DNA of 64,000 bases from Mesostigma viride (Eukaryota; Streptophyta; Mesostigmatophyceae; Mesostigmatales; Mesostigmataceae), in NCBI GenBank assembly GCA_009746045.1, contig RPFO01001284.1:62001-126000 (forward strand). The letters run 5' to 3'. Positions 2,475-32,506 of the stretch are shown here, one piece after another. Position numbers and translations under genes: made by a program. The notes below the pieces were generated by a model, which worked only from the letters and a program-made list of their open reading frames with translations, ran no database searches and was not told the DNA's origin. The first letter of the stretch is position 1. Each line of letters begins with the position of its first letter.

Positions 2475-5400
2475 CTATCCACGACGGTCCTCCTCATGCT
2501 CGATGAACTCGAGCGCCTCCTCGTGCGAGATGACCTGCACGCGGCTAACACGGTTGGTGTGCAGCACGCCGTAGATCTTCTGGCACACCTTGACCAGCTC
2601 GGGGCGGAATGTGGTCGTGATGAACTGTGTGTCCGTTGTCACGGCCTGCCGATGGATCATGTCTGACCGTCATGACAGCAACGTGCCAAGGATAAGCAGA
2701 AGAAATTTTGGTTTCATACGGCCAAGCCAGGACCACATGGGGATAGGCTGAGAGTACCGGAAACAGATATGATTTCGTGGCAAAACCCATCAGAGTTATC
2801 ATGTGTGCACACTGCTGCTACATGCGACAGCAGATAAACGTTTCCCGCAGACCCGTTACTTGCAAGAGCGAAATGCGCAGCATGCTGGAAGAATATCACA
2901 TGGCATTAACACGTAAACCGTGGTTGCACAACGTAGCCATGATAAGAGAGCATCCCATGTCATCCGGTTGACAATCATAACAGCAGAGCATTGCGACATC
3001 ATATATATACATATATATTGTAAACTGTGAATAACTATTCCAGTGGCGCTAGACAAGACTGTTGGCTAATGACAAATACTTGGGGACGACGCCAGCATAC
3101 ACCCTATGCTGGCTGTCCCTCGTCCCCCAAGGGTGGGCGGAGGGGGGTAAAATAAAAAACGGGTAGGTCAATCACCATCCACCTCCCCCTTTATACCTAA
3201 AATTCCCCAACAAAAGTGAGGGGGAGTAACATGTGCCAGAAACACATATTTACAAAACTTGTAAAAGCTAGCGGCATGTACCTTGGCCTAAATGAACTAT
3301 GTAGCACAAGATAATACGAACGTTAGCTCACAAGTGCCAGCATCGTGTCCTCAGCGATTGCACGCTCCAAAACTCCCCATGAAGAGCGCTGGTCCACTTT
3401 ATGCGTGCGATAATCATGGCTGCACAGTATCACATGCAAGGAATGGTCGACAACAGGGCGCGCCAAACGTACTTGCGACGACATGCAAGGCATGGTCATC
3501 AACAGGGCGCGCCAAACGTACTTGCGACGGCCGTGCGGTACACAGGGTCCAGCGCGGCGTCGATCTCGTCGAAAAGGTAGAAGGGTGCCGGGTCGCAGCG
3601 CTGGATGGCAAAGATCAGTGCGAGCGCGACGACAGTCTTCTGGCCGCCTGACAGCTGGTTCATCGACATGGTCTCACCGTGGCCAAACGACACCTGGCAG
3701 GGTGGCCTCCGACATGTGGGGGGTTGCGGAGGGCGACGTGAGCGGCCATAAATCCAATGGCTAGCATCATGAACATAGAGCATTCTGATGAACACAAAGC
3801 AAGCATAAGAGGTTGCACGCATGAAACGAGCCCTTTGCTCCAATGCCCAGACTGAATGATGAGTCGATGACATGAAGACCCACAAAATCCAGGGATACCC
3901 CTTAGTAAAAGCAATGGTGCCCTGACTTCCACACCAATAGTCCAGGTGGTTTTCACTCCCACATAAACCAGGCATACCTTGACTTTGACGCCCGAGTACT
4001 TCTCGATGCGGCCGCCATCCGTGGGAGGCTCTGATGGACCTGCGGCCTCGCCATTGGCTTCCTCTGCCTCTCCTTCCTCCGCCTGTAATGCAGAGTGCAG
4101 ACATGTTGCCAAGTAGGATTTTTGATATGTGAGGGTCGTGAGGCAACCTGAAATAGAGAGTCACGCCCCATTGTATATATCCGATGGGCTTGGCGTGGTG
4201 TGACAAGGGCCAGCATAAATGTGACACTATTGACATGCCCGGAGGCACGCCGTTCAAGGCCCTTCATGAAGTACGTTGCCCTAGAGGCAACCAAGACAAG
4301 GGTGGGAGGGTGGGGAGCAAAGAAAGAGGCCGACAAAACCAGCCAGAGCGGCTTTTAGTCGCAAAACCTCCCTTATCCCTAGCTAACTGACGTCATTAAA
4401 CCCTTATGTTCAGTGATGCTAGTAAGACGCTAACCGTACAGACCGGGGGTAGAATATCCCGAATCTGCACGGCTAGTATTAAATAATGCGTAGGTTGTTC
4501 TTTTCAGGGGCACTGCACCTCACGCCCCGTTCCGCCCGGGTACAATCAACCCAAGCGCGGAACGCACATTTTATTTAATTCATTTTTCAACCATGCACTA
4601 TACTGCATCTACTAATCTCAAAAGCTCTAGCCAAACAGCTACGAGAAAACACTACGACCTATAAGCCGCTCAACCAGCGGCCTCTTGTTCCCGCATTCAC
4701 GTATAGAAGAAACTCCGTTCAAAGAACCCCGATTATTTTCATCTCTGAATTATCACTGAATCAATCAATCACTGAAAGTCGATTCCCAATACCCAAGCAA
4801 GCCTTATCACTGAATAGGGATGATATATATATCTATTTTTAAATATATATCATCCCTATATATTCCTCTATATCCCTCTATATTAATGAGACAACCAGCG
4901 CAGGCCAGAAATCGGGAGAATCTGGACCATGGTAGCTCGAGCCTGCCGTTATCTTATCCGCGTTGTCGAGTCGTTCAGGATGATGGAAATGAATGGAGTT
5001 GGAAATGTGTAGCCTTGTGCATTGAAATTATGGCTGGCTTACGTGTAGAGCGACTAGATGGCCTAGACGGCGTGTGTTTCTAGCCTAGCTGGCCGGGAGT
5101 GTCTAGTGGTGAGCACCATGCTGCGATTGCTCTCCCACCATTTTTTTACGAGGAAATACCGCACCATCGCCTCTTATATCCTGGAAAACATGCTGCTGCG
5201 TATGGCGTGGCAGGTGCTACACAGAAGCAGGCAATTATATTCAGATTAATTTCTGTTTGAGAGTTGTGATGTGAAAGGATAATCTGCTACTCTCCAGAAG
5301 GTGCGCTATGTGGCACAAAAATAACGGCATTTCTGAGTAAACCACAAGCAGATGCTTTAACATAGGGCAGCACTCACCAGCCGCTTCTTCTGCATGACGA

Positions 5401-32500: not shown

Positions 32501-32506
32501 TACTAG
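23597..32506 (+). CDS. AIP1: AIP1/WDR1, actin-interacting protein 1 (7 exons)
   Basis: WD40 protein of two seven-bladed propellers that works with ADF/cofilin to sever and disassemble actin filaments in the cytoplasm. Exons: 23597-24005, 24913-25132, 26133-26334, 28372-28638, 29709-29909, 30752-31003, 32252-32506; all GT/AG, phases agree, 601 aa (human WDR1 is about 606). Diagnostic strings: YTNGKC-like [13 protein letters not shown] near the start, [79 protein letters not shown], final [14 protein letters not shown] then TAG. The ATG at 23597 is preferred over an in-frame TTG at 23576 because homologues start here. Five of six introns begin with copies of the preceding exon end. Confidence 0.96.
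24788..24862. repeat. 26 bp tandem repeat, three copies, end of AIP1 intron 1
   Basis: Units GTGTTYGATGCACCTGCCAC at 24788, 24814 and 24840, 50-120 bp before the exon 2 acceptor. No exon similarity was noticed. Confidence 0.85.
25113..25376 (+). repeat. 33-35 bp tandem array of exon 2 end/donor, AIP1 intron 2
   Basis: Exon 2 ends with the codons for TVSSDKK and donor GG|GTGAGT (GT at 25133). The string (C/T)GACAAGAAGG recurs about every 34 bp at 25121 (exon), 25156, 25189, 25223, 25257, 25289, 25323 and 25357, usually preceded by a copy of the upstream coding bases (CCGTCAGCTC). The last copy ends in a consensus donor GTAAGT at 25369. Eight junction copies including the real one. Confidence 0.92.
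26340..26392 (+). repeat. 12 bp repeat (GTTTGGAATAGC) x4, AIP1 intron 3 start
   Basis: Four perfect or near-perfect units begin five bases after the exon 3 donor (GT at 26335). Confidence 0.9.
26449..26502 (+). repeat. diverged copy of exon 3 end in AIP1 intron 3
   Basis: This 54 bp stretch reads [17 protein letters not shown] against the true exon 3 end [17 protein letters not shown]. Both finish GACATGCAGCAG, 168 bp apart. Amino-acid changes are mostly conservative. The copy is followed by GACC, so it has no donor of its own and cannot act as an exon end as it stands. Confidence 0.85.
26876..27781. repeat. 25 bp minisatellite, about 36 copies, AIP1 intron 3
   Basis: Unit TTGGTATATTCYAACGCAAT plus GTGCC. 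Variants alternate TCTAACG/TCCAACG, with rarer CAAGGC and CAATGC forms, and higher-order blocks repeat (27,000s versus 27,300s). AT-rich relative to exons. No exon similarity seen. Confidence 0.95.
28629..28682 (+). repeat. copies of exon 4 end/donor (GGGCATGCAG|GTG), AIP1 intron 4
   Basis: Exon 4 ends GTGGGCATGCAG|GTGAGC. The next 44 bp contain AGCATGCAGGTGGC, GGGCATGCAGGTGGG and GGGCATGCAAGTTG, so up to three decoy AG|GT sites lie directly behind the real donor (GT at 28639). Confidence 0.85.
28902..28942. repeat. (GGGGATT)n short array, AIP1 intron 4
   Basis: Five to six 7 bp units. The motif is not the plant (TTTAGGG) or algal (TTTTAGGG) telomere repeat. Confidence 0.85.
30140..30385 (+). 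repeat. degenerate copies of exon 5 end/donor, AIP1 intron 5
   Basis: Exon 5 ends GGCGGTAAAGTG|GTGCGTGGGAGGG. The intron repeats GGCACCAAAGTGGTGCACGA, CGCCAAAGTGGTGTGTCGGG, GGCAAAGTGGAGCAGGGG, CAAGGGTGCGTGGAGGG and GGCGCCACAGTGGTGCGTAA with irregular 30-60 bp spacing, starting about 230 bp after the donor. Confidence 0.7.
30986..31061 (+). repeat. 38 bp tandem duplication of exon 6 end/donor, AIP1 intron 6
   Basis: GACCGCATCAAGCAAGAG|GTAGGG (exon 6 end, GT at 31004) is repeated 38 bp downstream as GACCGCATCAAGCAGGAG|GTAGGG (GT at 31042). Both donors are equally good. Use of the second would add 38 nt and shift the frame. Confidence 0.92.
31277..31668. repeat. 11 bp minisatellite (TGATGGCCTGC/TAATGGCCTGC), AIP1 intron 6
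   Basis: About 35 units alternating TAATGG and TGATGG; preceded and followed by degenerate TTGCCTGTTAC-type repeats (31100-31830). Confidence 0.95.

Follow-up and report, generated by a model that had tools for sequence, protein, structure and literature searches.

Minisatellites whose repeat unit spans an exon-intron boundary are known from amphioxus, where such 'mirages' have been reported in Adh3 and in the globin genes BflGb6 and BflGb9; either boundary of an intron may be affected, and splicing is reported to be normal (PMC3087553). A coding segment with AGGT that is duplicated in tandem can give rise to an intron, a route reported for the potato RdRp gene (PMC4974935) and for Drosophila (PMC2891723), and tandem repeats in Chlamydomonas and Volvox are reported to be enriched in introns, towards the intron ends, with a U-shaped profile (PMC3887541). 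Here we analyse a stretch of 64,000 nucleotides (nt) from the alga Mesostigma viride (contig RPFO01001284.1, positions 62,001 to 126,000; 'the window') that contains SMC3 and AIP1, the latter a WD-repeat gene, and in which 13 of the 30 introns of the two genes hold copies of the end of their own upstream exon together with its 5' splice site (donor).

As in the mirages, the unit of these 13 introns spans the exon-intron boundary while other units are intronic, and the copies occur in several unrelated genes; unlike the amphioxus cases, they are found in a streptophyte alga, about one third of the tested donors carry them, and donors with copies outnumber 3' splice sites (acceptors) with copies by about 3:1. 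The structure is a newly seen, frequent instance of the kind known from amphioxus; what is new is its presence in a streptophyte, how common it is and the imbalance between donors and acceptors. The initial annotation of this DNA knew of no description of such introns; the type had been described as mirages (PMC3087553), and open-access literature on Mesostigma intron repeats or minisatellites, or on the term 'mirage minisatellite', contained none on such a structure in Mesostigma among the matches listed. The resemblance to AGGT-based intron gain lies in the tandem duplication of a coding segment beside a splice signal; the difference is that the M. viride introns already exist and grow, none being bounded by two copies (0/51). 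With Chlamydomonas and Volvox, M. viride shares the green lineage and repeat-enriched introns, whereas its acceptor end is repeat-poor rather than part of a U-shape, and exon-end copies are unmentioned in the available part of that report (PMC3887541).

Exon-end copies in SMC3 and AIP1

The exon-intron models of both genes were rebuilt by hand. The SMC3 model became identical to a published protein recovered by protein search (P0001, jgi Mesvir1 Mv04256) once the acceptor of exon 14 was shifted by 3 nt; we take Mesvir1 in this name to stand for Mesostigma viride. Homologues P0122 and P0123 span the entire AIP1 model, and introns 1-5 of this gene are confirmed because the published isoform P0121 matches the model through exon 6. 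Past exon 6, P0121 continues into intron 6 (31004-31045), where, by sequence, its stop codon lies inside the duplicated donor; this may reflect retention of the intron, early polyadenylation or a choice made in annotation. For M. viride NIES-296, a genome of 441.8 Mb based on PacBio reads at 113x with Illumina polishing is reported, with a mean intron length of 1142 bp and repeats making up 30.1% of intron space (PMC6947507); the assembly to which the window belongs measures 439.9 Mb.

Each intron was searched with its own exon-end/donor junction, a match having to include at least 5 exon nt, and mismatched exon-intron pairs (n=870) served as control. Copies were found in 13/30 introns at alignment scores of at least 24 and at least 28 and in 12/30 at a score of at least 32, compared with 15/870, 2/870 and 0/870 mismatched pairs, respectively; given the mismatched rate at score 24, the most permissive count may include one false match. 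When the query was restricted to the last 45 exon nt (score of at least 30), 7/30 own introns matched and none of the 870 mismatched pairs did, and the reverse complement of the exon end was found in none of the 30 own introns. The start of the next exon was found in a single intron (SMC3 intron 17; 1/30), and the mirror test at acceptors of the window introns (score of at least 32) likewise gave 1/30 against 0/870. The copies in the window exceed what chance and the mutual resemblance of donors produce.

The positive introns are SMC3 introns 6, 8, 9, 10, 11, 18, 20 and 24 and AIP1 introns 2-6. They are apparently the same 13 that the initial annotation had named out of a supposed 31, SMC3 introns 19, 21 and 25 of that numbering probably corresponding to 18, 20 and 24 here; its count of 13 was borne out, while the total is 30. 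Units, lags and decay differ from intron to intron, as expected of the independent events it had proposed. The largest copy number is 19, in SMC3 intron 6 (18521-19855), where the position equivalent to the donor reads GG in the 8 copies inspected out of the 19 while the used donor is GT; the array appears to have expanded from a unit with a dead donor.

Synthetase genes, donors and acceptors compared

Exons of aminoacyl-tRNA synthetases were located with Pfam elsewhere in the assembly that holds the window and were picked irrespective of repeats. The search found 28 loci, of which 8 on contig C2011, which looks bacterial, were excluded before counting and 20 were used. Exon borders came from a simple gene finder combined with by-eye recognition of the protein, without RNA support, the donor of locus L011 being set by hand. 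The gene finder recovered 23/25 SMC3 exons exactly on resubstitution and 14/25 when trained on AIP1, and 2/7 AIP1 exons when trained on SMC3; for this reason, exons were kept only if their protein was recognised by eye. The synthetase 'introns' are stretches truncated at the locus end or after 1500 nt, and some of them enter an exon listed only under an overlapping locus, a caveat that applies to the copy counts, alignments, lags, similarity of the intron part, GT decay, the ascertainment test of identities, 12-mer repeats, coverage, duplication content and the AGGT and introner tests, and least to the comparison within 300 nt.

An exon-end copy followed 17/41 synthetase donors, compared with 6/1584 in mismatched pairs, and 7/41 acceptors were preceded by an exon-start copy, compared with 5/1584; part of the mismatched matches may stem from overlapping loci. 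At one locus (L022), a repeat unit comprising 37 nt of exon and 67 nt of intron recurs directly at a donor with 99% identity. Boundary-spanning copies occur in SMC3, in AIP1 and in six synthetase loci, all unrelated genes, and are not peculiar to the window. The excess of own exon-end matches over mismatched exons, on which the initial annotation had staked its case, is present in both sets (12/30 against 0/870 in the window and 17/41 against 6/1584 in the synthetases).

In Micromonas and others, introners likewise account for repeated sequence across numerous algal introns. The M. viride copies, in contrast, match their own exon rather than a common family: comparison of 71 intron stretches yielded 6 cross-locus pairs at E <= 1e-6, 4 of them from overlapping loci and 2 from dispersed repeats of 187-191 bp. 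Introner families were rejected, there being no element family common to many of the 71 stretches.

Donors and acceptors differed in the frequency of copies. Within 300 nt of the junction, copies were found at 22/66 donors and 7/65 acceptors (Fisher p = 0.003), the counts being 7/26 and 1/26 in SMC3 and AIP1 and 15/40 and 6/39 in the synthetases; across whole intron stretches, the numbers were 24/71 and 8/71 (p = 0.002). A looser junction scan (score of at least 28, at least 8 exon nt; run without the mismatched control) gave 35/71 donors and 10/71 acceptors. Exon sequence lying 60-105 nt off the junction had copies within 300 nt in 0/40 cases on each side, so the copies belong to junction-spanning segments. 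In alignments, acceptor-side copies resemble donor-side copies.

The intron interior was examined in the same way. Across 47 introns, random points had a doublet within 300 nt at a per-intron rate of 17.7% (interval 10.5-25.2), or 22.6% when pooled. With the exon masked, repeat coverage was 0.16-0.24 across the first 200 nt and 0.19-0.29 further in, and the first 150 nt showed no donor enrichment relative to the interior (difference 0.04, -0.08 to 0.17; 43 introns of at least 600 nt). At acceptors, intron-only repeats covered 0.02-0.04 of the last 60 nt and remained sparse (0.02-0.16) to about 400 nt. In an exon-derived copy just one of the two sides drifts, and such a copy should remain recognisable for about twice as long; by this simple argument the random-point rate was corrected to 1-(1-0.177)^2 = 0.32. 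Relative to this expectation, donors (22/66) were no different (p = 0.79) and acceptors were lower (p = 9e-5); the asymmetry between donors and acceptors (Fisher p = 0.003) is independent of the correction. Donor targeting need not be invoked to account for the copies.

Tandem duplication with unequal tolerance as a probable explanation, and its rivals

The intron part of the unit was also similar (p < 0.05) in 14/23 donor copies. In an ascertainment test, for which copies were picked solely on sequence upstream of position -15 (12 introns), identity was 0.74 at exon positions -15 to -1, 0.60 at intron positions +1 to +6 and 0.40 at +7 to +20; the first two values fit ordinary tandem duplication, 0.55 being expected for two drifting intron copies. 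Similarity is lost after the second copy in SMC3 intron 9 because a 707-bp stretch with terminal inverted repeats begins 3 nt further on. Copying limited to the junction, for example from RNA, had been suggested by copies that end near it and was set aside, the identities in the 12 introns being compatible with ordinary tandem duplication, yet 9/23 copies lack significant intronic similarity.

Short-range duplication pervades these introns. A 12-mer was repeated within 400 nt in 45/71 introns compared with 0.10 in order-2 Markov shuffles, and duplication content was 0.18 by intron and 0.24 by 1-kb chunk, against 0.06 in stretches that are random or rich in transposable elements, 0.06 in SMC3 and AIP1 coding sequence (5 chunks) and 0.004 in the bacterial-looking contig. 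As to a possible fixed step of about 100 bp, the best-scoring doublets had lags of 91-107 in 11/24 donor cases and 94-107 in 19/49 intron-internal cases, a choice of one best-scoring pair per array that favours larger lags, while primary 12-mer lags ranged from 10 to 164 (50 introns).

Untargeted small tandem duplication in introns, combined with a tolerance that differs between donors and acceptors, is probably the best explanation of these results. Small tandem duplications would accrue along whole M. viride introns, with lags of about 10 to 170 bp and a visible group near 91-107 bp, and those straddling a 5' splice site would copy the exon end and donor into the intron. A donor-side event might be tolerated if the first, upstream donor is still used and the intron merely becomes longer; we infer this upstream-donor rule as the reason for tolerance. 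An acceptor-side event would create an additional acceptor ahead of the genuine one, disturb the mRNA more often and be lost more frequently. Slippage or unequal exchange could then expand some doublets to arrays while the copies drift, and the net outcome would be that exon-end fossils outnumber exon-start fossils without any donor-directed machinery. The molecular source may be slippage or the repair of staggered breaks, which is reported to give small tandem duplications in human and mouse cells (PMC8355091); that process is a possible source of the M. viride doublets.

Several observations weigh against this explanation. The repeat-poor zone at acceptors extends to about 400 nt (0.10-0.16), wider than a branch-point zone would require, and with the exon included repeat coverage peaks at the donor, at 0.43. 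Taking the random-point interval of 0.105-0.252, the corrected expectation could span about 0.20-0.44, and against the uncorrected 17.7% it is the donors that are in excess (22/66, p = 0.002) while the acceptors are not significantly lower (7/65, p = 0.19). Furthermore, in 9/23 donor copies similarity of the intron part is not significant, and at locus L032 the exon part is identical at 36/36 positions while the intron part reaches just 0.56.

Ordinary intronic minisatellites that overlap exon ends by coincidence, with no true difference between donors and acceptors, are an unlikely alternative to untargeted duplication with unequal tolerance: the introns are repeat-rich all along, tandem repeats in Chlamydomonas and Volvox reportedly become more frequent towards the ends of introns (PMC3887541), and acceptors do not lie significantly under the uncorrected random points, but the roughly threefold gap between donors and acceptors, seen within 300 nt and across whole stretches alike, argues against coincidence. 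We give little credence to a duplication process directed at 5' splice sites, for instance one initiated by RNA-DNA hybrids or by breaks where exons end, as the seed of the arrays. The excess of donors over uncorrected random points, the coverage peak with the exon included and the frequent end of homology within 16 nt of the junction would suit it; intron-only repeats, however, are not enriched near donors, copies at acceptors also exist, and 17.7% of random intron points carry such doublets too. The donor-targeted duplication suggested by the initial annotation is not supported on these counts, and the donor rate, set against the corrected expectation, fits untargeted duplication.

Selection retaining additional donors for backup or for regulated splicing, the other possibility raised in that annotation, is very improbable. 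At least one copy with an intact GT is kept in 15/23 introns, and in 4/23 a decoy scores at least as high as the used donor. Retention of GT is nevertheless just 0.54 across copies (intron-weighted; 55 copies, 23 introns), the identities at +1 (0.82) and +2 (0.67) being like those of the adjacent positions (0.68-0.77 at -4 to -1 and 0.55-0.78 at +3 to +6), and the GG copies of SMC3 intron 6 also speak against selection. The decay of the copied GT looks roughly neutral. The published proteins of both genes agree with use of the upstream donor in 12/13 copy-bearing window introns, the thirteenth, AIP1 intron 6, being unspliced in P0121; this may merely reflect that the alternatives would break the protein.

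Just as hard to credit is that these structures are traces of introns born when an AGGT-bearing coding segment was duplicated in tandem (the Rogers model): exon-end copies do carry donors, the next exon starts with GT in 17/51 cases and old births could have decayed below detection, but at score 24 neither the exon end and intron 3' end (0/51) nor the next exon start and intron 5' end (0/51) matched. An assembly artefact is the least credible source, near-identical arrays being difficult to assemble but PacBio coverage of 113x with Illumina polishing being reported (PMC6947507) and the majority of copies being diverged singles or short arrays; the single diverged copies are unlikely to be artefacts, an argument that does not extend to the near-identical arrays.

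A bolder extension of the preferred reading, which we put forward tentatively and consider rather doubtful, is that a strict upstream-donor rule of the M. viride spliceosome makes donor-spanning duplications nearly cost-free and introns grow mainly from their 5' ends while acceptors are protected, leaving fossils at about one third of donors. If so, the rules of splice-site competition would determine in which direction the introns of a genome grow. If the pattern is genome-wide, Mesostigma would offer a large natural set of donor duplications, each revealing which of two similar donors is used, the scarcity of acceptor duplications would gauge the strictness of first-acceptor use, and introns would be seen to lengthen and gain minisatellites without transposons. 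For annotation, intronic copies of exon ends may be fossils and not exons.

Feature coordinates and other repeats

Table 1. Genes of the window and introns with copies of exon ends or exon starts (positions in the window).
Feature	Position	Strand	Description
SMC3 gene	2475..22593	-	25 exons, 24 introns; hand-built model identical to published protein P0001
SMC3 intron 6	19088..19871	-	40-bp array; unit of last 16 exon nt plus intron start; 19 copies
SMC3 intron 8	17317..17408	-	junction copies adjoining 47-bp array (16294-17339)
SMC3 intron 9	15545..15697	-	exon end and donor, 2 copies; junction shifts 96 and 193 nt; identity 90% and 96%
SMC3 intron 10	14266..14347	-	2 degenerate junction copies
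SMC3 intron 11	13631..13706	-	junction copies; period 37 bp
SMC3 intron 17	8103..8160	-	acceptor and exon 18 start copied; sole clear acceptor-side case in the window
SMC3 intron 18	7616..7798	-	degenerate exon-end or junction copies
SMC3 intron 20	6408..6444	-	single copy of last 32 exon nt plus donor, 86%
SMC3 intron 24	3432..3529	-	49-bp unit, 2 copies, last 8 exon nt included
AIP1 (WD-repeat) gene	23597..32506	+	7 exons, 6 introns; hand-built model; P0121 matches through exon 6
AIP1 intron 2	25110..25379	+	old array of about 34 bp bearing exon end and donor
AIP1 intron 3	26449..26503	+	single copy of last 54 exon nt, 76%
AIP1 intron 4	28658..28682	+	last 11 exon nt plus donor copied, 92%
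AIP1 intron 5	30280..30321	+	single degenerate junction copy, 73%; weakest among the 13
AIP1 intron 6	31024..31058	+	final 18 nt of exon and 17 nt of intron copied, 89%; other arrays follow

The introns of both genes contain further repeats. AIP1 intron 3 (26335-27780) starts with a 12-bp array (GCGTTTGGAATA) and later holds a 25-bp array in which GCGTTGGAATA occurs on the opposite strand; a search of this intron for inverted repeats of at least 16 nt found none. The 707-bp stretch of SMC3 intron 9 (14835-15541), which lies 3 nt past the second exon-end copy and has perfect 25-nt terminal inverted repeats, is probably a DNA transposon or a miniature inverted-repeat transposable element (MITE), and an inverted repeat in SMC3 intron 7 (18046-18339), with arms of 71 nt, 93% complementary and spaced by 152 nt, is likely a MITE or foldback element. 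The two dispersed repeats are a 187-bp sequence common to AIP1 intron 5 (29931-30116) and SMC3 intron 24 (3154-3338) at 81% and a 191-bp sequence common to SMC3 intron 22 (4880-5070) and an intron of L032 at 93%.

Contig C2011 (L008-L010, L017, L020, L021, L030 and L035) carries intronless chaperonin and aminoacyl-tRNA synthetase frames at a GC content of about 34%, compared with 53% in introns. The random genome stretches (n=6) served as background only, their predictions being mostly unclear or like transposable elements; one of them, L005, may contain a genuine gene. Several matches to the dynein heavy chain (PF03028) fall within frames that stay open for about 1000-1700 codons, which suggests, in contrast to SMC3, genes with long exons. 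In the window itself, positions 51017-63919 hold long open frames that, by eye, resemble retrotransposon polyproteins, probably of the Copia type.

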